This document shows positions 4,751 through 33,164 of a stretch of 55,341 nucleotides of DNA, piece by piece; within the stretch, counting starts at the first letter, position 1; each line of letters starts with the position of its first letter. The notes beneath the pieces were generated by a model. That model was not told where the DNA came from. It searched no databases and was given only the letters and a program-made list of their open reading frames with translations. Position numbers and translations under genes: made by a program. This DNA is from a virus. The stretch lies in the IMG/VR virus record IMGVR_UViG_3300033146_002149, positions 1 through 55,341 of that record. One strand, written 5' to 3'.

Positions 4751-7700
4751 CTATTTTATTACATTGAATTGCTTATAAAGATCTTCACGCTGGGCATTTA
4801 ATTTACCAAGTTCAGTCAAGACTGCCGTGGATTGCTGTGGCAACTCTTTAAGTTTGTTTTCTTTCGATTTATTTTTACGTAAGGCACTTTGATAGGCTTC
4901 ATAAGTTTTCATCCCTTTAAAAGCTTCTTTATTCATATTAAGGAAGAGCCGCTTATTAGTTGCTTCCTCAAAAGACTTTTTGAACTTCTTTACTTCTTTC
5001 CCTGCCTTGTTAAAATCTTGCTCAGGAATACTCTTCTTAAACTCAACTCCTTTGCCCATATGCCAGTAATAAAGTTTACCAATTCCAGGAATAGAATCTA
5101 CAGACCGGATGCCTTTTGAAACATCTCCAGTAACATCTTTCGATAGGGCATCTACAAACTTTGTCGGAGGTAAAATTTGGCCTATGATTGCCGATCCTAG
5201 ACCTTCCTGATTTATCTCTGCTTTCATATATCTGGAGGCTCCACCAAGGGTAAGAAGGTTTTCAATTACGTGATCTTCAAACCTCATTTCCTTGCCTAAC
5301 ATTAAGTCTTTTATTTCATCCGCCCCAGCATTAGCAAGTGTTAATAAGGTAGTTATGGCAACCATATTACTTATGCCTGTTATTATCTTATCTTGCTCAC
5401 CACTTTTAATGTTGTTAAACACCTCTCGGCGAAAAACATCAAGCTGTTTTATTGTGTAAGTCTTTAGCATATAAAAAATTCTGCCATTGCCTGCATTAAG
5501 ATATTTTTCAGGCATTTCAGAAAGTGCTACTGGCTGAAAGTCCAACAATCTATGGTAGACCAAAAGTTTTACGTTGTCCGTAATTGGGTTTCCAAGTAAA
5601 TCTTGTATGACTTGATTAGATTCTTTCCCAAAAATCGGTCTGATATCCTTAAGTAGTTGCTGCCTACCAGCCTCTGTACTTGCCCTATTTTTATAGTTAT
5701 CTAAAGAATTGTTTATCAACACCTCTTTACCGATGGAGTCCATCTTCTCAAGACCAACTGCCCAGAACACTTTAGATACCGCTTTGCTTAACGAATCATT
5801 TCCTGCAAACTCTTGTGCAATTCTATCCAGGCCTAAGTTTTCTTTAGTAATATTTGACCTTTTCAATACCGCAGCATTGAAGTTTTTTAAGGTGTTGCTA
5901 AATCCCCTGGGTGTCCAAACCTTTCCAACATACATTGCCCAGGCAAGATCACCAATCTGAGTAGCGGCCGACGTAAAGCTGCCCATGGTATCTATGTAGG
6001 AAGCATTCTTAATTGTATTTGTAATACCTGTTGTGCCGTGCTCGTGGAATCTGGCGTCCAGAATATCATTTACTAGCTTCTCATCTTTTTTCCCTAACTC
6101 ACCGGAGATCATCAAATCTGAAATATACGTCCCAATGTTGTCAGTATAATCTCGTTTGTTCTTATACTCTTCGATCTTCACCGAATTGAGTTTTATATTA
6201 TCTTGGAGGGATTTAATCTTTTTGCTATAAGCATCTTTATTTGTTGTATCTGCTTCGGCAGTATCCAGTGCTTTGAGTTGTTCGTACTTAATTAGGTTTG
6301 TTTGATCTCGTTTAACTGCTGACTTTGCTTTACTTATCGCTGCTGGAACCTTACCAAAGAAGCGTCTTGCCTCAATTTTTTTAGTCATACTATATATGTA
6401 TGTCATCAATGCAGCGTCAGAATCTTCATAGAATTTTGCATACTTTGATTCAATCTCTTTAAATACTCTGCCTTGAATATTGCCCGGCCCAGATATTCCA
6501 GTAGGATGACCTAAGATTATGTTGCTAATAATATCAGCACGGACTTCAGGATAGGTACGATTAAACTCTTGGACACTTATATCAAGTTTAGCTGCTTCAG
6601 CTTTTATGGCATTACTATATATTGGTTGCTGTGAAATCTCTTGGGTTTCCTGAAGAAAGCCTTCCATATCTTTGATTACACGAGGCCAATATTCATCAAT
6701 ATAGCCTACATTGTAGCCAACATCTTCAGCATCTTGCCTGAGCTTATTAAGCTGTGTTCTTACGTTATTATAGTCTTCAGTCAATCCATACTTCTGAGTC
6801 AACTGATCAATTTTACCTGGATCACTTTGTTTTCTCGCCCAATCCCATTCGACTTTATCCTTGGCGGACATTTGTTTCTTTGCTTTAAGCATAAGCGGAT
6901 GAGCTGCTTCTAAGACGGATGCTACAGATTGGCCAGTCCGGAAATCGAGGTTTCGATATTCAGCAGCAAGCTTTGGACTTATGTTTTGTAATCGAGTATG
7001 GGTAGAACCCAACAGTTTGTCCCCAAGCAGCTTTATGTCAGTGGCCTTCATTCGGAAGATTTGCTGGATGTCTTTAAGTAAATTGTTTTTTTGGGTAAAA
7101 ACTTTGTCATATGTTTCTTGAGGGACTATTTGCTCCCTGGTTTCAAACATCGGCATGCCTTCACGCATTGCCTTGCTGCGCATCCGATCAGTGATCTCCA
7201 TACTTGGCAACTTCATTCCATCAACTTGAATAAAATCCAACTTAGCACTTCCCCACTGACCTTTACCAAATTCTTTCTGAAGCATCCTTGGAAGCATCTT
7301 ATTATAAAACTCTACCATGCCTTCCTTTCTGGGAAGATATTCACCAGTAGGATTTTCTTGCATGCGTTGCCATAACTTATCTGCTGTTTTATCTAAATAC
7401 TCTTCCCAAGTCTTCTTGGAATATTCACCTTCTTTATGTTTCAACACATCTTTAATATGATCATAGACATCATCACGAGAACTAATAAAATCAACTAAAT
7501 CAAATGTTTTACCTTCTAACTGTGCCGCCATCCCCATAAAGGCATCACCAGCAACTTGTGCAAAACCACTTAATTCTAAATCACCATCAAGATTTGTTTT
7601 CCAATTAAATGCTTCACTTCCCCAGCGTTTGACTTGTATATCCGCACCTGACCAAGCTATTTTGTTAAAACCATTCTCTGCAGCATACCTTACCATTCGC

Positions 7701-10700
7701 TTCATACCCAACATTACAGCATTTTCAGAGAATGGATTTCGCTCAATCCCTTGATCACCATCAGATATTAAAGATAAATCATTTCTAGCTTGTTCTTGTG
7801 TTATTTCGCCAAGAGTAAGAAGCTGATTAATTTTATTTTTTAACATCATATCTGATCGTACTGTAGGCATCCCATTAGGATTTCTTTTTACTGGGATATT
7901 ATAAAAAGAATATAAGTCTTTACTTTCACCTTTCTTTCTTAATTCCTGATCCCAATCACTTTGAACTTCTTCAGCATGAAGTATCTTGGAACCATTTTCA
8001 GCAAATCGGGTTAATATTCTAAAATGAACTACTGGATTAGAAGTGTCACCCCAATGAGCATTGGAAGTATACTTTGTTTTTCCAGGTAGAGTTATAATAA
8101 GTTCTTTGTAATCTTGACCACCGGCTTCTTTGTAAGCATAAAATTTAGTGCCTGTTTCCTCAGAAAAGAAATCACTCCGAATTGTTAAAGCATCTATCTC
8201 ATCCTCAACTTCTAATTGCCTTTGCTGCATTAAAGGAGAAAGATTTTCTTCTTGATCAAGATAGGCTTGTTCCGAATAAAGAGCTTCTAATTCTTGTTCA
8301 ATATAAGAAAAGTCATCTAACACAACCTCTTCAAGCTTCACCTGATGTTCATTAAACCAAGTTGTTATTTCATCCTTAGTTAATTTCTTCTGTGGATTTT
8401 CTAACAACATTGCAGACAACCCAGTCCAATCAAGTTCATCCTTTTTAATTCCTGGAGCTTTTTTAATATTATTTAACCACGCTCCAGCTTTAGCAGACTT
8501 CATATTGCTAGCATCAATGGTCTTGGCAATAGTGGAATACCATTTTTCAGCAGTAACTTCTGTTTGAGGCTTAATCGTTTGAACTGACTTACCGTTTACT
8601 TGCCTTTCGTATATTTTGCCACTTTCAACTTCACTAATCAAGCCTGATATGGATTGCCTACCAAGCCCAAGCATTTTATTGAAAAATTCCATTATCTTCT
8701 GGATAATTTTCTCAAAAGTTGTGCCTGCATAAGCATCTTTGTTAACCATTATCTGAGCGAACATATTAGCTCGATTTTCTTCCATGGCTTTTATAGGATC
8801 AGTATGAGTACTTAAAGCAAAATCTAACTGGCCTGCCTTATTAAGTTTATTAAACTCCTTATTCAACGCGGCATTATCAGCTTTAGTAATCATTCCAAGA
8901 TTGTCAAGAACATGCTTGTTTTCATGCCACAGAGTTCTATTATCAGCAAAATTCTCGTCGAGTAAAATATCGCTGCCTAGCGTAACACCGAGGATCTTAC
9001 CATTTTTTGACATTTGCCCAGTGGAGATTGCATACTGAATAAAGCCTTCCCCTGCGTCTTGGATACTCTGGAACGTGATGCCTTTACCATTTTTGAGTTT
9101 TACAGATATCAGGCCATCCTCATTTTGAAAGACTTCCTGATCTTTGTACATGTTCTTAATATCAAGGAGGCTTATTCCTTTTGAAGGTGTCTTGTCATTT
9201 CGGATTTCTGCCTGCATTATATGCAGTTTTTCTTGATTACGTTCCAACAATGCTACTTGATCAAGAACTTTTTGATCCCATAAAACGTAATTCAAATTAC
9301 CTTTACCCTCACTACGACTCATTCCATCTAAATACTTATTGCCTGGAATACCTAATGAAGCTAAATATTCTGAAGCAGCTTGCTTACTTCCAAGAACATA
9401 TCTTAATTCTTTGTAAAGTGCCCTGCCAGTAATACTTTCTTCCTTAATATGTTTAAGTTCTATCGGAGCAACTTTATCTTTATGCAGAAGTAAAAAATCA
9501 GTTACTTGCTTTAAAATATTTTTTACATTAGAATTTTGTTGCTTTAACGATTTGTCCCAATCCAAAAGTTTTGGTATAACAGAATCTGGAATGTCGAGCT
9601 TATATAATGAGCCTGATTGAGAAGGATATTTATTAAGTTTGTCAGTTAATTGTTTATGTAAAGATTCTTTACCTTTTAAAGAATTTCCAGAGATATCAGA
9701 AATATCTGCTAGTTGATTAACCAAATAATCAAAAGAAGAATCTAAATAAGATGCTCCTACTTCCTTACTGTCAGCACTATACCATCCAGCACCATAAGCC
9801 CAAGCACCTTCACCAACAACCTCTTTATTCATGATCATATCAAGGCGAGGCCGTCCATTTGGAAACCCAGGCTCTGGTTGCCATTGATGAGGAGTACCAT
9901 GATAAACTATTTGAAACTGCGGCGTAAAAGATTCAATTGCATTTTTATTAAAAACTCTAATAACATTAGCACCATCTTCAACTTGCCAATTAGCTTCAAA
10001 ACCTAAATCTTTCAAAGCCCAGAAAACTTGTGGATCTTCATAAAAGTTAAAGCTGCCTTCTTGCGCATTACTAACTTGCCCATCTTTACCGTTCAACTTA
10101 TTTATGTGAGCAGTCTTTTCAGCAATCTTATCTAATGCTTCAGCATGTTCAGGTTTTCTTGCATCGAATATTTTTTCTGGTGGAATGCTTAAAGTTGCTT
10201 CATGGACTGTACCAAACTTACTTGCTACAGTAGGATCTTCAGTTAGAAAATAACCTCGGTGACCATCAGGAAGATCCTTTCCTGACGTAAGCCCTTCTCT
10301 GCTTGATCCATGATAAAGTTTCCCAATAGCTTTTGTAGGAGCTAAATTACTAGCCTGCATTGAATCAATTAACTGCTTTTTAAGACGAGCAAGAAGTCTT
10401 TTTTGTGGTGCAGGTAATTTTTCTTTTGCTTCAAGGCTTTCAATTTCCCATTGAAGTTTCTTCTGGGCTGATGTTAGTTCTTCAGTAATTTGAAAAGAAA
10501 CTGGATCAATATTAGGTAATTCTTTTATTGCCTGCTGTTGACGATCAGTAATTTGCCCAAAAGCATAAATATCTGATGGATATGAATAACGCATCTCAGG
10601 ATCAATTTTTTTACTTGCTTCTGGCCCAACATCATGAACATTTCTAGCCAGAAGAACTGATCCAGGAGCTAATAATTTTGCTTGCTTATCAAATTTAACC

Positions 10701-13700
10701 TTATCAAAAAAAGCTGTTTCTTGCTCAAAGTCGATAATTTTAGTTACTGGAATCTCCAGAGCTTTAATTATTCCTTTAGCTCCAGAATAACTTCTCGCTA
10801 TATTTTTATCTGAACTACCAAAAAGATTATAACCTTCTCTACTTAAGTGTCCAGGTCTATCTTTACCCATACCACGGTAAATTTTTACAGTATCCGTAAA
10901 AACCATATTTTGATAATAGATTTCTTTTAATTTTTTTTCTAATGCTCTCCCTTCTGGGGTTTCCATAACATCTATTTGATCAAAGATATCCATTGCATTA
11001 ATTTTATCATCTAAGGCTTTTTCTTTTGCTGTTAATTTTAAAGTAGTTTTCTGTTTTTTATTCGCAATTTCATGCGGGAGGCTTATTCCTTTTGAATGCG
11101 TTTGATCAGTTCGAATTTCAAAATAAGCTTTAACTGCGTCAGATGTACTATTCTTTTTATTTGGTTTTCCAAAGCGCTCAGTCTTATCTAACGCAGATTG
11201 ATACTTAGGTAATGTCATAGCATCAAACCAATCAGACATAGGTAATGATTTTAATTCATTAAGAAGAAAAAGATCCTCCGCAGTGAAAAAATCTTTTGCT
11301 TCTTTAGGCTTATTTCTTTCTGGTAATAAATTATCATCAAAAACAGCAATTTCATAAGCTCCTGAAGGTAACTTTTCTTTTGCTCCTTTAATCCCATGTT
11401 TAACCAATAGCTTTCTAGCTTTCTCAGCTCCTACAGTATGAACTAAAGCACCAATAACACCTCGACCATGTTTGAAATTTGATTTATGATTCTCAGCTTT
11501 AGTGATTTTTTCTTGTGTATCTAAACCACCTTCAGCAAGAGCTGCTTTAAGTTTTGGAGGTATAGGATCATTTAGGACATCATAAAAATCATCTGTTTCA
11601 ATAGATATTTTAGTCTCATCACCATATTTACTGTAAACATTTTTAGCTAAAGCTAAATCAGTAGAAAAGTATATTCCTGGCCCAAGAATACTACTTCCTT
11701 CACCAGAATGAAGCATGGCAGATAAAATATCGCCACCTCGATAAGAGCCATAATGAATAGCATCAGTTATTTGAAACTGCGGAGTAATTTTAAGCTTCTC
11801 ATTTTGCGCTGACAAATCCTGAGCTTCTTGCAGCAATGCTTTGCGTGTAGCCTTATCTTTTTCAACATCCAGCTCATTCATGATTTCGTCAATTCGAGAT
11901 TCATTCGAAGTTATTTGATCATCAATATTTGGCACAACTTCTTTTTTCATTGCATCTAATTGTTCTAATAAATCACTTTTTTGGCTAAGTAAATCATTTT
12001 CTTGTCCACGTAAAGTTGCTGATTTCTGTCTTAGGCGATCATAATCTTCTCGCTCAATATATTCATTTTCAAGTTCATTAATTGTTTTATTATATTCATT
12101 TTGAAGACTTCCTAATTGATCTTCATTTTCCTGATATTTAGATTTAAGATCAGTACGAATTTGATCTTCTTCCTGCTGTGTTTCAAGATCAAGGGCGGCT
12201 TGTTGATTTGCTTCTATGCCGACTTGTTGTTCATTTTTGAACACACTCGTTTCATCGGTTGGTAAGTTCTGTTTTGTTCTATCAATCAGGCCTGACTCAC
12301 CCATTCCTTGTGCTGAACCAAGTTTAACAGCACCTAATTGATGTTCTCCAGGAATTGTTCGAGCTCTATCTTGGCCAGTTGCCACCCTGTTGGGATCAGT
12401 AACATCCCCGAGGTCTTTCGCAATTTGTTGAAACCACCTTTGGCGTTTATACTGTTCAGCTAAAGGAACTGTACCTTTTAATTTTGTTGCCTCATAAGAT
12501 TCCTTAGCATCAAGATCTTCTTGTATCTTCTTTTCAATCTCTTTTGCATGACGGGCAAGAAATCTTTTCTTCATTGCAGCGCCTTGCTCTTTAAGCATTT
12601 TAATTTGCTGCTGTTTTTCTATTTCTGTTTTAACTTCTTGCCAATAATCATCTTCAATATTAGCACGAACTTCATTAGCTTTTTGTCGGGTAGATGCAAT
12701 AACTTGTTGACTTTTTGTCAAAGCATCTTTTTCTGCATTAATCTTATCAATAGCATTTACAATTGAATCTTGATAAGTAGTTATTTCCTTTAAAAGTTCT
12801 TTTTTCCTAATTTCAGCACGAACTTTTTCTACTTGATTTTTAGTAGTACTGATTACTTCTTCACTATGGGCTAAAGCCTCACGATCTTTTCTAAGTGCGT
12901 CAGTAGTATTAACTAAGTCATTTTGAAAAGCCTCTATTTGTTTAATGGCTTCTTTATTACTGATTTCTTGCCTGACTTGAGCTGCCTTAACTTTAGTAGA
13001 TGCAATAACTTCTTGGCTTCTAATAGAATCTTCTTGATCAGATATTTTATCTACCCGTGATAAAGCTAAATCAACTTGATAATCTTCAATACTTCTTTTA
13101 TTTTCTTGCTGGACATCTCTCTGTTTGATTTCTTGCTTAATCTCAGAGGCAAGTTTTCTTGTTTGCTGAATGTTTTGTTGTCCAGCAATAGTATTTCGTA
13201 TAGATGACTGATAATCACTAATAGAAGTTTGTCGATCTTCCTCTAGAATAGTTGGTTTATTCGCCGTAAGTATATCAGCAGATTCTTCTGCTCCTTTATT
13301 CACAGATAGTCCAATAGATTGCTCAAGGCCAGCTTCACGATTTTGCCGGAGTTCTTCTTCACGTAAGGATTTACCAGGCGGAACAACATTATCTTGGCTT
13401 TGTAACGGAATTGCCTTAGTAATCTGATTAGCAAGATTAACCATATCTATGCGGACTGCTTTCTTAGTATCAGCTAAACTTAAGTTACGTTTAACAGATT
13501 CTTCTTGCAACAGTTCCGGAGTAGATAAAAGCAACTGGAAGTTTCTTACTTGATTTTGCAAGCCTTCAGGAGTTTTATTAAATGCTTCTTGCTGGATGTT
13601 ATCACGCTTTGCTTGAAGCTCATAAAGTCGTGACGTAACCCCAGCTGGAGGATTCTCAACTGCCTCCAAGTTCCCAATTTGTTTATTTATCTCAGTAATA

Positions 13701-15019
13701 TCATCAGGCAGGGCAAAGGCATCTTTATTTATGCGATCGTCAACTGGGGTAGCTCCAGCAATAGGTACTTCTTCTCCAGTTAGTTTCGATACAATCTGGG
13801 AATTAACATCTGTTTCGGCAGTCAATTGAGCTGTAAAATCATCAATAGACATACCTTCAGCCTGGGCAGCTCTTTGCACTCTCAAGGGATTATTCAATAT
13901 CTTTGTATTAGCTGCATTTTGTTCCGTCAAAGATACTACTGCTTGCTGAATATTTGCTTCTCCAGCAGACTTAATATTATCCACACGTTCGTTAATACGT
14001 GCTTCTTGATCTGGTGCTTCCGAAGTTTTGCCCATCATAGTATTAGCTGCACCACCAAAGCCTCCGCCTACAACACCAGCAGCAGCACTTTCCAAGATTT
14101 CCCACTTATTATCATTTGTGAAAAACTTCTCATCAGTATTCAAAACTGTATTGAGTATACCAATCGCGGATTGTCCCGCTTCTTGTAAGCCTTCTTCGCC
14201 CATATTATGAACAATCTCAAGTGCTCCACGTTTAGCTGTTTTTGCACTCCCAGATGCGATACCATTAATCAGAGTTCCGATTAACTTACTATTCCCGCCC
14301 AGCAGTTCAAGTGCTCCAGACAAAGTACCTAAAGCAGCAGACATTGCTGGAGCTTTAACACCATGAGTTTCCAACAGATCTGCATACATTCCACCAGCTT
14401 CTTGTGTTGCTACCGTGGATACCATGCCAGCTTGGGCAGCTCTTGTCAATCCTTTCTTTGTTAAGCCTGTAATAAGTTTTTTAGCTGCAAATCCACCAGC
14501 ACCACCACCAAGTGCGGCAGTAGCCATACTTGGAAGTAACGAACCGATTGTGCCCTGAACAAAGTCTGCTGTTCCACCAAGTCCGGCCTTACCATCCCAT
14601 ACGTCTTTAAAACTATAGCGGGCAGGATTCTCAGCAGCTTCAGCCAAATTTCGGCGATAACCTTCCATACCAAAATCTTGCATCCTTTGACCAACATTAT
14701 CTGCACCCATATTCTCCAAAGCACGACCGGTCAATGCGACTGCTCCGTAACCAGCTCCTTGAGTCTGATCGATATTGCGTTTTATGCCTGTTATAAAATC
14801 ACCTTGAGCTTCAAGGTTCGCCAAGCCTCGTTCTTTACTAGCTTGCTGTTGCTTCACTGCATTTAATGTTTTGGGTGAATATACTTCTTGCTGATCTCCA
14901 AACAACACCTTATATCTTGGCTCATTTTCCCAAAGGTTATTATGCTGTTCTTCACCTATATCATCAATGAATTTATCATATCCATATTCTTTAATTGCTT
15001 CTGGTGTTGCTTTTGCCAT
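4751..15019 (-). CDS. Giant polyvalent virion protein (3422 aa) with ADP-ribosyltransferase-like segments and an HEXXH motif
   Basis: One uninterrupted frame of 10.3 kb. Visible parts in order: a glycine-rich hydrophobic stretch (about 150-190); a long coiled-coil/Q-rich region (about 430-860) with repeated units near 58 residues (SQQVIASTRQKANEVRA, SEEVISTTKNQVEKVRA); four ADP-ribosyltransferase-like cores opening at about 1089 (HYGSYRGG...GPGIYFSTD), 1381 (IYRGMG), 1570 (LYHGSSREG) and 1706 (VYHGTPHQW); HENKH, a zincin-type HEXXH, at 2032-2036; a polyvalent-protein module around EEVQSDWDQ (2347); a junction-like EGMPMFETRE (about 2620); and a helical C-terminal part with a hydrophobic segment near 3212-3237. 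Proteins of this class are thought to be packaged and injected, delivering effector domains to the host. Enzymatic activity is inferred. Catalytic residues beyond the motifs were not verified. Confidence 0.85.
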   Translation of the reverse strand: MAKATPEAIKEYGYDKFIDDIGEEQHNNLWENEPRYKVLFGDQQEVYSPKTLNAVKQQQASKERGLANLEAQGDFITGIKRNIDQTQGAGYGAVALTGRALENMGADNVGQRMQDFGMEGYRRNLAEAAENPARYSFKDVWDGKAGLGGTADFVQGTIGSLLPSMATAALGGGAGGFAAKKLITGLTKKGLTRAAQAGMVSTVATQEAGGMYADLLETHGVKAPAMSAALGTLSGALELLGGNSKLIGTLINGIASGSAKTAKRGALEIVHNMGEEGLQEAGQSAIGILNTVLNTDEKFFTNDNKWEILESAAAGVVGGGFGGAANTMMGKTSEAPDQEARINERVDNIKSAGEANIQQAVVSLTEQNAANTKILNNPLRVQRAAQAEGMSIDDFTAQLTAETDVNSQIVSKLTGEEVPIAGATPVDDRINKDAFALPDDITEINKQIGNLEAVENPPAGVTSRLYELQAKRDNIQQEAFNKTPEGLQNQVRNFQLLLSTPELLQEESVKRNLSLADTKKAVRIDMVNLANQITKAIPLQSQDNVVPPGKSLREEELRQNREAGLEQSIGLSVNKGAEESADILTANKPTILEEDRQTSISDYQSSIRNTIAGQQNIQQTRKLASEIKQEIKQRDVQQENKRSIEDYQVDLALSRVDKISDQEDSIRSQEVIASTKVKAAQVRQEISNKEAIKQIEAFQNDLVNTTDALRKDREALAHSEEVISTTKNQVEKVRAEIRKKELLKEITTYQDSIVNAIDKINAEKDALTKSQQVIASTRQKANEVRANIEDDYWQEVKTEIEKQQQIKMLKEQGAAMKKRFLARHAKEIEKKIQEDLDAKESYEATKLKGTVPLAEQYKRQRWFQQIAKDLGDVTDPNRVATGQDRARTIPGEHQLGAVKLGSAQGMGESGLIDRTKQNLPTDETSVFKNEQQVGIEANQQAALDLETQQEEDQIRTDLKSKYQENEDQLGSLQNEYNKTINELENEYIEREDYDRLRQKSATLRGQENDLLSQKSDLLEQLDAMKKEVVPNIDDQITSNESRIDEIMNELDVEKDKATRKALLQEAQDLSAQNEKLKITPQFQITDAIHYGSYRGGDILSAMLHSGEGSSILGPGIYFSTDLALAKNVYSKYGDETKISIETDDFYDVLNDPIPPKLKAALAEGGLDTQEKITKAENHKSNFKHGRGVIGALVHTVGAEKARKLLVKHGIKGAKEKLPSGAYEIAVFDDNLLPERNKPKEAKDFFTAEDLFLLNELKSLPMSDWFDAMTLPKYQSALDKTERFGKPNKKNSTSDAVKAYFEIRTDQTHSKGISLPHEIANKKQKTTLKLTAKEKALDDKINAMDIFDQIDVMETPEGRALEKKLKEIYYQNMVFTDTVKIYRGMGKDRPGHLSREGYNLFGSSDKNIARSYSGAKGIIKALEIPVTKIIDFEQETAFFDKVKFDKQAKLLAPGSVLLARNVHDVGPEASKKIDPEMRYSYPSDIYAFGQITDRQQQAIKELPNIDPVSFQITEELTSAQKKLQWEIESLEAKEKLPAPQKRLLARLKKQLIDSMQASNLAPTKAIGKLYHGSSREGLTSGKDLPDGHRGYFLTEDPTVASKFGTVHEATLSIPPEKIFDARKPEHAEALDKIAEKTAHINKLNGKDGQVSNAQEGSFNFYEDPQVFWALKDLGFEANWQVEDGANVIRVFNKNAIESFTPQFQIVYHGTPHQWQPEPGFPNGRPRLDMIMNKEVVGEGAWAYGAGWYSADSKEVGASYLDSSFDYLVNQLADISDISGNSLKGKESLHKQLTDKLNKYPSQSGSLYKLDIPDSVIPKLLDWDKSLKQQNSNVKNILKQVTDFLLLHKDKVAPIELKHIKEESITGRALYKELRYVLGSKQAASEYLASLGIPGNKYLDGMSRSEGKGNLNYVLWDQKVLDQVALLERNQEKLHIMQAEIRNDKTPSKGISLLDIKNMYKDQEVFQNEDGLISVKLKNGKGITFQSIQDAGEGFIQYAISTGQMSKNGKILGVTLGSDILLDENFADNRTLWHENKHVLDNLGMITKADNAALNKEFNKLNKAGQLDFALSTHTDPIKAMEENRANMFAQIMVNKDAYAGTTFEKIIQKIMEFFNKMLGLGRQSISGLISEVESGKIYERQVNGKSVQTIKPQTEVTAEKWYSTIAKTIDASNMKSAKAGAWLNNIKKAPGIKKDELDWTGLSAMLLENPQKKLTKDEITTWFNEHQVKLEEVVLDDFSYIEQELEALYSEQAYLDQEENLSPLMQQRQLEVEDEIDALTIRSDFFSEETGTKFYAYKEAGGQDYKELIITLPGKTKYTSNAHWGDTSNPVVHFRILTRFAENGSKILHAEEVQSDWDQELRKKGESKDLYSFYNIPVKRNPNGMPTVRSDMMLKNKINQLLTLGEITQEQARNDLSLISDGDQGIERNPFSENAVMLGMKRMVRYAAENGFNKIAWSGADIQVKRWGSEAFNWKTNLDGDLELSGFAQVAGDAFMGMAAQLEGKTFDLVDFISSRDDVYDHIKDVLKHKEGEYSKKTWEEYLDKTADKLWQRMQENPTGEYLPRKEGMVEFYNKMLPRMLQKEFGKGQWGSAKLDFIQVDGMKLPSMEITDRMRSKAMREGMPMFETREQIVPQETYDKVFTQKNNLLKDIQQIFRMKATDIKLLGDKLLGSTHTRLQNISPKLAAEYRNLDFRTGQSVASVLEAAHPLMLKAKKQMSAKDKVEWDWARKQSDPGKIDQLTQKYGLTEDYNNVRTQLNKLRQDAEDVGYNVGYIDEYWPRVIKDMEGFLQETQEISQQPIYSNAIKAEAAKLDISVQEFNRTYPEVRADIISNIILGHPTGISGPGNIQGRVFKEIESKYAKFYEDSDAALMTYIYSMTKKIEARRFFGKVPAAISKAKSAVKRDQTNLIKYEQLKALDTAEADTTNKDAYSKKIKSLQDNIKLNSVKIEEYKNKRDYTDNIGTYISDLMISGELGKKDEKLVNDILDARFHEHGTTGITNTIKNASYIDTMGSFTSAATQIGDLAWAMYVGKVWTPRGFSNTLKNFNAAVLKRSNITKENLGLDRIAQEFAGNDSLSKAVSKVFWAVGLEKMDSIGKEVLINNSLDNYKNRASTEAGRQQLLKDIRPIFGKESNQVIQDLLGNPITDNVKLLVYHRLLDFQPVALSEMPEKYLNAGNGRIFYMLKTYTIKQLDVFRREVFNNIKSGEQDKIITGISNMVAITTLLTLANAGADEIKDLMLGKEMRFEDHVIENLLTLGGASRYMKAEINQEGLGSAIIGQILPPTKFVDALSKDVTGDVSKGIRSVDSIPGIGKLYYWHMGKGVEFKKSIPEQDFNKAGKEVKKFKKSFEEATNKRLFLNMNKEAFKGMKTYEAYQSALRKNKSKENKLKELPQQSTAVLTELGKLNAQREDLYKQFNVIK

Positions 15020-28301: not shown

Positions 28302-30440
28302 TTATTGTTGCTTATTGTTGGTTTCTAAACCGTATTCTCGCTTACTCGGATTTGATTTGTCATTTTTTAGTTGCGTATTATCTGGCCGATTGATTTGATC
28401 AATTGTTTTTACTTCTTCCAGAGCAATCTTTTTCCCATTATTTATGATTTCAGCGGTAGTACGGGTCATATTAGATTGTTCAGTAGCCGCCTTGACATAA
28501 TTAAGTGCAGTTTCAGATTGAATATGCTCAATTTTAGCAGATAGTTCTGTCAGCTCAAGTTGTAACTTCTCCAAAGATAATTGTTCCTGCGGATCTTGTT
28601 GCTGCTCTTGAGGAAACAATGATTCGATATCTTGAACGTCCATAGCGAGTAAATAGCGACGCAAGATTTCTTGATCATTAAGACCTTGACCCCTTAGTTC
28701 TAACATTGCTTTCGCTTTCATTAAGCGCTGCATCATAGTTGTGCTATTAGGATCAGATACGGGAAGAATATCGAAGTCACTTGCAGAAAAGTCAGCCTGC
28801 ACTATTGCAGCATCATCATCTAAAGCAGTACTATAAGTCATCTGATCCAAATAAAGTGCATTAAGCCTTTTTAACTTGGCAAACTCTTTATATTGCGCAC
28901 GATGAATGCGTTTGTGAATTGAAGAATATACTCGTAAGCCCTGTTCGATTAATGCGAGAACAGATTCAGCAGGTACGTTAGCTCCAGGTGAATTGCCCGC
29001 CAGGATTTCGGTCATGCCAGCGAGTTCTTTCCCACTATCAATTAAAAGCCCTAACAAGCTAAACAATACATTAGATGGTTCACGGATAGGCATGGGGAAA
29101 ACATTCTTTCGTAAGTCATCGCCAGTTGACTCAACAGGCTTCCATTCTCCGGCCTTCAGTTGAATTGATTTTCCCCTACCTAAACGCAATCCCCGCCCAA
29201 GGAATCCCGATTGTCTATTTGAAAGTGTCCCAGCGTCTAGAAGCTGATTTAATAAAGTGTTTATTGCAGAGTTGGTGCTCATCAGAAGTGAACCGAATCC
29301 CATGCCATAGAAGCCACCGTCTATAGATGGCATAAACAAGAAACGAGTAAAATAATGTTCAGGCATAATCTTAATAATTTGATTACCGCCATCAGGTGAG
29401 CGTATGATTCCATCTGTGGCGAATCTAGCGGATATTCGAACTAACTTCTGGGTTTGCTCGTGGATAGTTACGATGTACGGTTCTTGATAGCCATCACCGT
29501 CTAGGTCGTACCACCTATGTTGTTCAAGGAATAAATGTGGAGTATCATCGTCTATGTCAGAAGTTTTATCAGATATAGCCTGACCTAATTCGGCAACATC
29601 AAATTTTGTAAACACACCAGAGTTTATTCGCTCAACTATTTCGTTATGATACAAATATATGCGATGAGTAATTCTTGGTGCTCGTTCAAATGATTCAGTA
29701 AAGTAATTAACTATTAAGTCATCAGCGAAGACCATTTGAGAAATGTTTTTTCTCTCAATAGAATCAAAATAGCTCTTTTTGAATGCACAGCCAATAGCAG
29801 GTAGTGTGAACAACAACTGATCAACGCCTTCTTCCCAGTCATCCATGTGATTTAAGACTTGGAATGACATGAACTCGGAAACACGCTGGGCTTTATCGAA
29901 CTTCAAGCCGTCTGGATCATTGCCAATTACCTTGCTTTTAACTACTTCATTCCCTTTGACTATTTCTGGATATGCCCGAGCTGCGAACTGTATACAGGCG
30001 TTAATAATTAATGGGTATTTAACATTAGCTACTACTTCCCCAGCATAAGTCTTCTTCTTTACTAACAACTTAGCCAGGTCGATGATTTGCGTATTTAAGG
30101 ATTCCCAATCTTCACGGCTAGCCAGGTCAGTTTTATATCCTTCAAAGACTTTAGTTGTCAGGTCTTTGATGATTTCATCTGATTGTTGGGGCACGAGATT
30201 TGTGATCATTACCGCAGCTTCAGCCCGCAACACTTCTTTCTCTACCACAGCATTGAACATATCATCAGATTGATCTGGAGCAATGATATCGGATACTGCT
30301 TCTTCAGATGCCCATACCGGCGGAGTGGAATCCATCCCAGGTTGAGGGACTTCAAGATTATTATCATCAACTAACATGGAATCATCCATAATTGAAGAAA
30401 CATCATTTTGGTTTGGGATTATAAAATCATCAACTGCCAT
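28302..30440 (-). CDS. Portal protein
   Basis: 712 residues, large acidic N-terminal part (1-60) then a body with PLIINACIQFAARAYPEIV (about 145-165), KRVSEFMSFQVLNHMDDWEE-like text (RVSEFMSFQVLNHMDDWEEG), CAFKKSYFDSI, and RRYLLAMDVQDIESLF near the end. It ends with a C-terminal polar helix, NNKQQ. This matches the P22-type/short-tailed-phage portal family: a dodecameric ring that carries the terminase and adaptor. It follows the terminase gene by one base, as expected. A 10-bp tandem duplication (CTTATTGTTG twice) spans the stop and the last codons. Confidence 0.8.
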   Translation of the reverse strand: MAVDDFIIPNQNDVSSIMDDSMLVDDNNLEVPQPGMDSTPPVWASEEAVSDIIAPDQSDDMFNAVVEKEVLRAEAAVMITNLVPQQSDEIIKDLTTKVFEGYKTDLASREDWESLNTQIIDLAKLLVKKKTYAGEVVANVKYPLIINACIQFAARAYPEIVKGNEVVKSKVIGNDPDGLKFDKAQRVSEFMSFQVLNHMDDWEEGVDQLLFTLPAIGCAFKKSYFDSIERKNISQMVFADDLIVNYFTESFERAPRITHRIYLYHNEIVERINSGVFTKFDVAELGQAISDKTSDIDDDTPHLFLEQHRWYDLDGDGYQEPYIVTIHEQTQKLVRISARFATDGIIRSPDGGNQIIKIMPEHYFTRFLFMPSIDGGFYGMGFGSLLMSTNSAINTLLNQLLDAGTLSNRQSGFLGRGLRLGRGKSIQLKAGEWKPVESTGDDLRKNVFPMPIREPSNVLFSLLGLLIDSGKELAGMTEILAGNSPGANVPAESVLALIEQGLRVYSSIHKRIHRAQYKEFAKLKRLNALYLDQMTYSTALDDDAAIVQADFSASDFDILPVSDPNSTTMMQRLMKAKAMLELRGQGLNDQEILRRYLLAMDVQDIESLFPQEQQQDPQEQLSLEKLQLELTELSAKIEHIQSETALNYVKAATEQSNMTRTTAEIINNGKKIALEEVKTIDQINRPDNTQLKNDKSNPSKREYGLETNNKQQ

Positions 30441-30441
30441 A

Positions 30442-32496
30442 TTAATAACCTGTAATTAAATTAGCTTCAACTTCATTAAAAATATCTGATTCCTCATAAG
30501 CTTCGAGTTCCCAATATGGCCTTGCTACCGCTCGATCCAGGCCAGACATGACTAAGTAGCGAACACAATCCATTAAATGATCATTTGATTTTACAATCTT
30601 CCCGTTTTCGTCCCGTCTGTAGATGCGAAATTCTGAAAACCAATTGACCAACGATGAGAATACTTTTAACCGGTTTGTGGATAGCATTTGCCATACTTTG
30701 TACAGGCCAGCTTCTACGGATTTATTAGCGTTAGATATATCAAGACCGTGATCTAAATAGATTTGAAACATTTGCTTACCATCTTCTTGTGACCTGCCGT
30801 GAGCAGCAGAATCAATTACGCCTGGAATCCATAACCCGCGAGCTTTAATGCCTTCAGCGTGAATAACAGGCTCTGCTTGACCTTGATAGTACTCAGAGTA
30901 TAAGTAAGTTATCTTTGCTGTAGGATCAGTAGCCGCCCATAAACATGCAGTTTTCTTCCATCCGATATCTAAGGCATAACAGCGGTGCCAATGTTCGGGG
31001 ATTTGAAAATCTGCCACAGTAATGTTAGATTCTTGGATTGGGAATATTGCCCCAGAACCAAGTTGAGGAATACCTTTTGACCTGGCTTCTCGTTGGTGGG
31101 GAGGTAATGCGGCAAACAGCTTGTCTTTCTGCTCTTTAGTAAGATGTGGAGCATCATCCCAGGTTGCCATTACCAAGCATTTGCTACCATCTTGACGTTC
31201 CTTCACCTCTCCGTCAGGCATAAACTGCATAACGGTGTCCGTGAGGCCTTCCAACGGGGTGAATGTAAGCATGATCAGGCCGTTTGTAGTCATGGTTCGA
31301 GTTACGCACTCAACGTATATGGACATCGGGCATTCTTCATCCAACCAAATTAAGTCTTGCTCTGTACCTTCGAATGATTTTCTGCCTTCAGCATATGACT
31401 TGATCTTACAGCGTGAAATTCCACCAGATATATGCTTCACGAGGATGGTATCTACTGCATTTGGAACGCCACCGGCCTTGGGAGTAGTCTTAATGATGTG
31501 TTTTTTCGGAATTAGTCCGGTACCAAATTCTTCTGGATTCCCAATGAGCTTGAGTTGTACGATATCTCTAGCGGTAGTGGATGTTGTTCCTGCTGCCCAG
31601 CATGTTATAGGGCGAGTGAATCGATGACCTTCCCACCAATCTGGATACCTACCGGTTAGATGCAACGTAGTTTCATATGCACCGATGCCTTCAGAGTTAT
31701 GGGTAACAATTCCACCAGTAAGAATAAAAGTATGTTCTGAATGAGATACTTCAATACAAGTACACGGAGCTGTTTCACCTAAATTAATTTGTGTTATTTG
31801 ACAATCAATAAGGTGACTATCTAATTGTTGTGTGTTTTTGAGATAATTTTCACTTTGAGTAAAATAGTCTTCAGTGATCGGGAGGCAGTTGCCGCTGCTA
31901 TTAAGATGAACAACTCTTGGAACAAAAATAACTTTCCCAGCAACAATAAATTTAATAAGTTGTTCCGTATTTGTGACTTCCGGAAAGTTGTTTGTTAATA
32001 ACTCTTTGGCAGTGATGTCTTGTGACTGGCTGTCTTGTGACTGGCTGGACAATTGTCGTTGCCGTAGGCCGGAGGAATATTTCCAAAGATGTTCACCACA
32101 ACAAGTTACCTCTTCATCGGAATCAAAGAGTATTTTATAAAGTTGTTTTTCTCCTTGAGGATAAATACCAATAACATCGGTCAATGAACCATCAGCTGCA
32201 ATAACAACCTCACCTAAAATAAGCTCCTCAATAGCTTTCCATCCATATGGAGTAGCTACTTGAGTTCCATGCTTAAGAGCTTTGCCTATCCTATTTGCAG
32301 CCATAATACATCGTTCAGAGTATTCTGTGCCGAGTTGAAAGAACTTCATGTGCTTGGGATAATTGAATCTTGATAGCAGGCCAGTTTTAGGATAATATTG
32401 ATCTAGCTTGGCTTGTTTTAAGCGGAGGTTTTTTGCTCGCAGAAGTTTTAAATACTCTTCTTTGGAATCCCTATCCATTGTGGAAATATCAACCAT
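30442..32496 (-). CDS. Large terminase with intein in Walker A
   Basis: 684 residues unspliced, about 489 after removal of the intein (residues 73-267). The N-extein ends AANRIGK and the C-extein starts SEGIGAYE, so splicing restores the Walker A motif AANRIGKSEG of terminase ATPases. Later motifs: Walker B-like LIWLDEECP, coupling LTFTPLEG, nuclease acid YALDIGWKKTACLWAATDP, GVIDSAAHGRSQEDG and NDHLMDCVRYL. The protein cuts and pumps concatemeric DNA into the capsid with the portal. The gene stop lies one base before the portal start. The insertion means ATPase activity should appear only after splicing. Confidence 0.9.
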   Translation of the reverse strand: MVDISTMDRDSKEEYLKLLRAKNLRLKQAKLDQYYPKTGLLSRFNYPKHMKFFQLGTEYSERCIMAANRIGKALKHGTQVATPYGWKAIEELILGEVVIAADGSLTDVIGIYPQGEKQLYKILFDSDEEVTCCGEHLWKYSSGLRQRQLSSQSQDSQSQDITAKELLTNNFPEVTNTEQLIKFIVAGKVIFVPRVVHLNSSGNCLPITEDYFTQSENYLKNTQQLDSHLIDCQITQINLGETAPCTCIEVSHSEHTFILTGGIVTHNSEGIGAYETTLHLTGRYPDWWEGHRFTRPITCWAAGTTSTTARDIVQLKLIGNPEEFGTGLIPKKHIIKTTPKAGGVPNAVDTILVKHISGGISRCKIKSYAEGRKSFEGTEQDLIWLDEECPMSIYVECVTRTMTTNGLIMLTFTPLEGLTDTVMQFMPDGEVKERQDGSKCLVMATWDDAPHLTKEQKDKLFAALPPHQREARSKGIPQLGSGAIFPIQESNITVADFQIPEHWHRCYALDIGWKKTACLWAATDPTAKITYLYSEYYQGQAEPVIHAEGIKARGLWIPGVIDSAAHGRSQEDGKQMFQIYLDHGLDISNANKSVEAGLYKVWQMLSTNRLKVFSSLVNWFSEFRIYRRDENGKIVKSNDHLMDCVRYLVMSGLDRAVARPYWELEAYEESDIFNEVEANLITGY
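31696..32280 (-). other. Class 3-type mini-intein in the terminase Walker A motif
   Basis: 195 residues between GK (position 72) and S268. The first residue is Ala, not Cys or Ser, so it cannot be a class 1 intein. It carries the WCT triad expected for class 3 inteins: EHLW in block B (Trp at intein residue 66), CIEV in block F (Cys 175) and THN at the end (Thr 193, His 194, Asn 195), with Ser as +1 residue. No homing-endonuclease domain fits in this length, so it is a mini-intein. It contains a small internal DSQSQD duplication (about residues 80-90). These are sequence observations. Splicing itself is inferred. Confidence 0.85.
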
Positions 32497-32498
32497 TG

Positions 32499-33164
32499 TT
32501 AATCAGCCATATTGCGAAAAGGATCAAAAAGAACGTTTTCTAAAATAGTTTCATCATCTAGCGAAGTGGAAGCTTCAATAGGTGGAAAATCACCAGGAGT
32601 ATCTGGAGTATCTGGAGCAGATTCTTCTTTTGGTTTATTGGTGTTGATTGAATTTTCCATGGCTGCGATTTCTGCGTCGATTTCCTCATCCGTCTTGGTT
32701 TGTAAAGTCATGTCGATGGTAAGTTTATCGGGGGCTTTATAGCCATTGCGGTCGAGTATGTCTTTAGCGGCTGATAGTTGGACATTAAAAGGTGCTTTCT
32801 GCTTAACATCTAAAATTCTACTAAATGCGGAAAGAGCATCTTCGTTTAGGGCAATCAATTTTTTACGTACATCGATTGTGGATTCTTTCATTTTGTCATG
32901 TAGGCCGTTCATGTAAGCTTTGCCTAAAGGTGAATGAAGAATAATTGATACGGTGCTTGGGGTTATTTCCAGTTTTTCAGATATCTCGTTATTAGTGAAT
33001 CCATTGAAGGACATTTGGATTATGTTGCGATGGCGAGCTTTGAGTTCTTTTAGCATAAGGGCACCTTCAATTGGGATGATAGTTAAAAATGGTGGAACTG
33101 CTTTAATAGATAGAGCTTTCTGTGAGGGTAGTTTAACTGTACCACGTAATGGGTTTGGTGTCAA
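32499..33164 (-). CDS. Small terminase subunit
   Basis: 221 residues from a TTG at 33164. The ATG at 33056 (MLKELKARHRN) has GAAGG 8 bases upstream and may be the real start. Helix-turn-helix at FNGFTNNEISEKLEITPSTVSIIL recognises the packaging site. A coiled helix follows (KKLIALNEDALSAFSRIL, then RNGYKAPDKL) and an acidic, proline-rich tail (about 165-221) that may bind the large subunit. The gene lies two bases upstream of the large terminase gene and ends at the divergent control region. Confidence 0.8.
   Translation of the reverse strand: MTPNPLRGTVKLPSQKALSIKAVPPFLTIIPIEGALMLKELKARHRNIIQMSFNGFTNNEISEKLEITPSTVSIILHSPLGKAYMNGLHDKMKESTIDVRKKLIALNEDALSAFSRILDVKQKAPFNVQLSAAKDILDRNGYKAPDKLTIDMTLQTKTDEEIDAEIAAMENSINTNKPKEESAPDTPDTPGDFPPIEASTSLDDETILENVLFDPFRNMAD

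Follow-up and report, generated by a model that had tools for sequence, protein, structure and literature searches.

A putative class 3 mini-intein in the Walker A motif of a phage terminase, at a bond shared with endonuclease-bearing inteins

The virus analysed here very probably encodes its terminase large subunit (TerL) as a precursor that is interrupted by an endonuclease-less class 3 intein, derived from a mobile LAGLIDADG-bearing family, and whose Walker A motif would be restored by predicted splicing. The window (the whole stretch of DNA that was analysed) is an IMG/VR virus record of 55,341 bases and the contig is a metagenomic assembly.

The interrupted terminase gene and its insert

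The terL open reading frame is a single uninterrupted frame of 684 aa (30442-32496, minus strand), with a Pfam Terminase_6N match on TerL residues 272-491 (7.5e-22) and additional matches to PHROG terminase large subunit families. The gene downstream of terL (28302-30440) is a probable portal gene as judged from its sequence, and the upstream gene (32499-33164) is, on our reading, small-terminase-like. Elsewhere in the window, a giant 3422-aa open reading frame in the structural module (4751-15019, minus strand) apparently encodes a multi-domain virion protein. Within TerL, the Walker A motif reads as AANRIGK, a 195-residue insert and then SEG, with the break in NRIGK-SEG lying between Lys72 and Ser268. 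The first-pass annotation had proposed that an insert of this length split the motif, and its limits hold to the base, since residues 73-267 correspond exactly to 32280..31696 on the minus strand, starting with ALKHG and ending with THN before Ser. The features of the gene, all on the minus strand, are the following.

30442..32496 (-), terL precursor gene, 684 aa, a Terminase_6N-type large subunit with an in-frame intein (Pfam Terminase_6N, PHROG)
32281..32496 (-), N-extein, residues 1-72, ending in AANRIGK, the first part of Walker A, with Lys72 at -1 (alignment with the intein-less locus L007)
31696..32280 (-), predicted class 3 mini-intein, residues 73-267 (195 aa), Ala1 to Asn195 (homology, L007 alignment, AF2 model, structural matches)
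32077..32280 (-), N-terminal splicing part, intein residues 1-68, blocks A and B (GEHLW) (75-81% identity to endonuclease-bearing relatives)
32083..32085 (-), codon of Trp66 (B:12), the W of the WCT triad (sequence; invariant in the family alignment)
31765..32076 (-), central segment, intein residues 69-172, a linker without endonuclease (sequence comparison; much of it at low pLDDT)
32016..32047 (-), perfect 15-bp tandem duplication in the central segment (TGTCTTGTGACTGGC, 2.1 copies), encoding SQSQDSQSQD (sequence)
31696..31764 (-), C-terminal splicing part, intein residues 173-195, blocks F and G, CTCIEVSHSEHTFILTGGIVTHN (78-83% identity to relatives)
31756..31758 (-), codon of Cys175 (F:4), presumed first nucleophile, where the branch would form (invariant in alignments A3 and A4)
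31702..31704 (-), codon of Thr193 (G:5), the T of the WCT triad (invariant in alignments A3 and A4)
31696..31701 (-), His194-Asn195 (G:6, G:7), C-terminal cleavage residues (invariant in alignments A3 and A4)
30445..31695 (-), C-extein, residues 268-684, starting at Ser268 (+1) of the Walker A SEG (Pfam Terminase_6N)

In a phmmer search of the PDB, the insert matched the gp41-1 intein at 6e-11 and, at about 1e-5, class 3 DnaB inteins from Mycobacterium, and stretches resembling it were found by tblastn in 351 phage records, within terminases and helicases. A check against intein models left the insert below curated cut-offs (Pfam Hint_2, 21.8 against 28.4 bits; NCBIfam intein_Cterm, 12.3 against 15.6). 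The same holds for the HINT parts of the relatives with endonuclease, so both models are insensitive to this group. An AF2 model was built from 26 sequences, with a numbering that includes flanking residues. Ten-residue block means of pLDDT were 84-98 at model residues 11-70 and 82-95 at 171-200, and pLDDT was below 50 at model residues 105-162 (intein residues about 100-157, in the middle of the central segment). Foldseek returned 38 PDB chains at E <= 0.001, with inteins in the top rows, and the two best structural matches by VIA-align 2 were class 3 inteins, namely 6riy and 6bs8, both at Z 15.4, the former superposing 127 residues with an rmsd of 2.0 A. The HINT fold that was looked for is thus present in the AF2 model, with class 3 inteins ranking first by both Foldseek and VIA-align. 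Several features expected of an intein are found together: an in-frame insertion without counterpart in homologues, a HINT fold, a terminal Asn, a penultimate His and Ser at +1. From fold, homology and the empty site in relatives, the insert is taken to be an intein, with splicing itself as a prediction. For intein residues 1-68, pairwise pN/pS against relatives came to about 0.2-0.31, and the TerL exteins gave about 0.16-0.32; the measure also covers the time before endonuclease loss.

The residues of the WCT triad stand where the first-pass annotation had placed them, at Trp66, Cys175 and Thr193, as does Asn195. Position 1 is Ala, and with no Cys, Ser or Thr there the N-terminal nucleophile is absent. 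Other class 3 residues are also present, including His64 (B:10), His183 (F:13) and Ser268 at +1. Residues A1, H64, L65, W66, C175, T193, H194 and N195 are invariant in an alignment of 26 related inteins, whose own numbering is offset by five flanking residues. The family was gathered partly by the pattern CCGEHLW, so that the choice of sequences accounts in part for the invariance of H64-W66, whereas C175 and T193 are free of this effect. The earlier claim of a class 3-type intein in the terminase Walker A motif is therefore upheld by the full WCT signature, Ala1, Ser+1 and the HINT fold, and assignment to class 3 is supported by sequence and model, with the splicing chemistry predicted.

Relatives at the same bond and loss of the endonuclease

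Five IMG/VR loci (L002-L006) carry a homologous 361-aa intein at the identical TerL peptide bond. Two of these, L005 and L006, have the same protein over the region read, leaving four distinct inteins. Their C-exteins are about 80% identical to that of the window TerL, and intein residues 1-68 are 75-81% identical. The 361-aa inteins contain two LAGLIDADG-type motifs, LLGDG and LMDSDGY; L002 has Pfam matches to Hom_end (1.8e-7) and LAGLIDADG_3 (3.6e-6), and cut-offs for both families are passed in L002 and L004 and failed by the window copy. Directly downstream of the intein-bearing TerL of L003 lies an open reading frame (L003:5540-6235) that, on reading its sequence, looks like a free-standing HNH endonuclease. 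In a sister TerL (L007), the site is empty (AANRIGKSEG) and the insert is missing exactly; in the TerL tree L007 groups next to L003, though support is modest (80/77). Among 80 TerL loci, Walker A was empty in 70, occupied in 5 and unreadable by pattern in 5. More distant phage TerLs (L093-L098) also have endonuclease-bearing inteins of class 3 at the same position, between GK and T, and together with L002-L006 they make the Walker A site a repeated target. The intein tree (91 columns) gave no placement of the window copy among its relatives, and its branch was longer than theirs.

Profile searching gave no LAGLIDADG match within the insert, and no match to LAGLIDADG_3, HNH_3 or GIY-YIG, the three families searched, anywhere in the 55 kb record; a protein search found no second intein in the contig. 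That the insert has no endonuclease domain, as first annotated, is borne out by the lack of a LAGLIDADG match where the relatives carry motifs and Pfam matches. On sequence, the window copy is a mini-intein, an endonuclease-less derivative inside a mobile family, and, with none of the three tested families in the contig, self-homing should be lost. Three phage class 3 inteins without visible LAGLIDADG were seen in other records: L099:615-1268 (218 aa) and L100:2980-3447 (156 aa), in what read as terminase-like proteins, and L134:2813-3241 (about 150 aa), in what reads as a chaperonin-like protein. Given these, endonuclease loss looks recurrent. Loci L084:1-237 and L092:3001-3253 lie at opposite ends of a single contig, IMGVR_UViG_3300035698_011749, whose TerL intein spans the contig ends; the frame change in the endonuclease part in L084 may be decay or assembly error. 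Micromonospora and Isoptericola genomes (L152-L171, L173) share a common conserved class 3 intein, mostly 357 aa, between GTIEVAPLAYMRGR and TLNDAF of an apparently PhoH-like ATPase (sequence reading).

The 104-residue centre (residues 69-172) shares at most 8 of 72 ungapped identities with the linker of the relatives, no more than chance, whereas the full-length relatives are 68-78% identical to one another in the centre. DNA similarity to the relatives falls abruptly at intein residue 68/69, and in hhalign comparisons with distant class 3 inteins the alignment was confined to residues 1-74. Third-base G+C in the centre (34/104) differs from that of the intein ends (13/91, p 0.004) and not from that of the exteins (186/489, p 0.32), so that its composition resembles the host gene and the phage's own genes. 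No homologue of the central segment was found in phage or IMG/VR searches. A LAGLIDADG remnant was rejected as the origin of the centre, there being no LAGLIDADG match and so few identities to the relatives' linker, and matches to Pfam ATP10 (E 0.012, below cut-off) and to fibronectin domains (E about 0.4) were dismissed as chance. The sequence comparison suggests that linker and endonuclease were not simply deleted but replaced, perhaps by recombination with a second intein; the alternative is fast drift following endonuclease loss. A chimeric intein, with blocks A/B and F/G from the mobile LAGLIDADG-bearing TerL intein and a centre donated by a different intein lineage or by a resident mini-intein, is a tentative reading that we consider possible and somewhat unlikely; the replaced part would start near residue 69 and stop somewhere in 138-172. 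If it is true, the endonuclease was swapped for a different linker in one step and not eroded.

Codons of conserved amino acids differ between the window and L002-L005 at 29-33% in the intein ends and 55-62% in the C-extein (Fisher p 3e-4 to 5e-6). One reading is that the intein spread once the TerL genes had already diverged; the other is that AT-rich third positions hold the differences down, third-base G+C being 0.14 in the intein ends, against 0.38 in the exteins. Horizontal transfer of the intein appears likely from these comparisons; it is graded as likely and not as proven because this composition bias is a real confounder.

Proposed splicing route and alternative readings

TerL would be made as an inactive precursor, its Walker A loop (NRIGK-S) split by the class 3 intein, and, from the cut of the P-loop by 195 residues, we strongly infer that the ATPase is off before splicing. 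Once the precursor has folded, Cys175, activated by His64 and Thr193, would attack the Lys72-Ala73 peptide bond, leading to the class 3 branched thioester, and the N-extein would pass to Ser268 (+1) by transesterification. Cyclisation of Asn195, helped by His194, would free the intein; Lys72 and Ser268 would then be linked again by an O-to-N acyl shift, which would rebuild AANRIGKSEG. The intein presumably originated in the mobile LAGLIDADG-bearing class 3 family found at this exact site in related phages; with its endonuclease gone the window copy should no longer home on its own, and it should persist through vertical inheritance and because any loss other than a precise one would do harm. 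Splicing activity, the order of the chemical steps, loss of mobility and the dependence of packaging on splicing are all what we infer from sequence and model.

There is a slim chance that the intein is decayed, its HINT domain no longer splicing or only cleaving, with the centre rebuilt after endonuclease loss and TerL dead or supplied by co-infecting phages. Inactive class 3 inteins of similar sequence do exist (Arth_1007, PMC3196547), and the unrelated, low-confidence centre and the longer branch of the window intein would fit such decay. However, all catalytic residues are present, unlike in Arth_1007, the frame is intact, and pN/pS points to constraint on intein residues 1-68 and the exteins, pre-loss time included.

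It is less probable still that the intein belongs to class 1 or class 2 and that its WCT-like residues are coincidental, in which case Ser+1 would attack the N-junction directly. Ala1 alone fits class 2 equally, and the top phmmer matches are to versions of gp41-1, which belongs to class 1 and has the Thr by nature; yet class 1 requires Cys, Ser or Thr at position 1, Cys F:4 and Trp B:12 are invariant alongside Ala1 in the 26-sequence family, and the best structural matches are class 3. Equally improbable is a chimera in which the endonuclease or the insert was dropped or misjoined by metagenome assembly, an origin to which the metagenomic contig and the sharp similarity step at residues 68/69 could point. 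The frame is kept through 684 aa, both splice parts are present and similarly diverged, and the third-base composition of the centre is that of the phage's own genes, all of which speak against such an artefact.

Comparison with known inteins

Class 3 inteins, insertion into phage TerL Walker A and class 3 mini-inteins are all previously known, and the window intein opens no new mechanism. The first-pass description of class 3 as a rare group is not borne out, as 1701 class 3 inteins in nr were catalogued in 2020, 82.5% with LAGLIDADG and about 300 without (PMC7891396). What the window intein adds, to a modest extent, is the series of empty, endonuclease-bearing and endonuclease-less states at one bond, plus a possibly chimeric centre. 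With exteins about 80% identical, splicing with and without endonuclease could be compared in nearly the same host protein, and one may ask how a non-homing intein persists. The 195-aa intein is also a candidate class 3 mini-intein for protein engineering.

In the established class 3 chemistry, the first attack on the N-junction comes from Cys F:4, a second branch then forms through Ser+1, and Asn cyclises last (PMC5222942, PMC7664689). The window intein has the same non-nucleophilic residue 1 and WCT triad as the class 3 inteins MP-Be DnaB, Msm, Mch and Mle DnaB-1, Dra Snf2 and MP-Catera Gp206, and likewise has in common with known members B:10 His, G:6 His, G:7 Asn and Ser/Thr at +1. It differs in its host, a Terminase_6-type TerL, and in that its splicing is predicted. 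MchDnaB-1 shares the HINT fold of the window model (Z 15.4), and its active-site residues (His65, Trp67, Cys124 and Thr143 of 145; PMC7664689) lie at distances from the termini that match those of the window intein. Functional mini-inteins of class 3 are known in Msm DnaB-1 (139 aa) and Mle DnaB-1 (145 aa) (PMC5222942).

Compared with the DnaB-1 mini-inteins, the window intein is about 50 aa longer owing to its central linker. The AceL TerL split intein is presumably hosted by a TerL, going by its name. Both it and AceL NrdHF, which has class 3 chemistry like that proposed here (PMC7891396), are encoded by split genes, whereas the window intein is contiguous. Mycobacteriophage TerL1-a inteins sit at the Lys-Thr point of Walker A, likewise between its invariant Lys and hydroxyl residue, with a host protein of the Terminase_1 family instead, and the TerL inteins that this study names as class 3 occupy other sites (TerL1-c and -e), unlike the window's (PMC5050341). 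The closest counterparts are the inteins of L002-L006, of the same family and at the same bond, with ends 75-83% identical; they differ in their length of 361 aa, their LAGLIDADG endonuclease and their unrelated centre.
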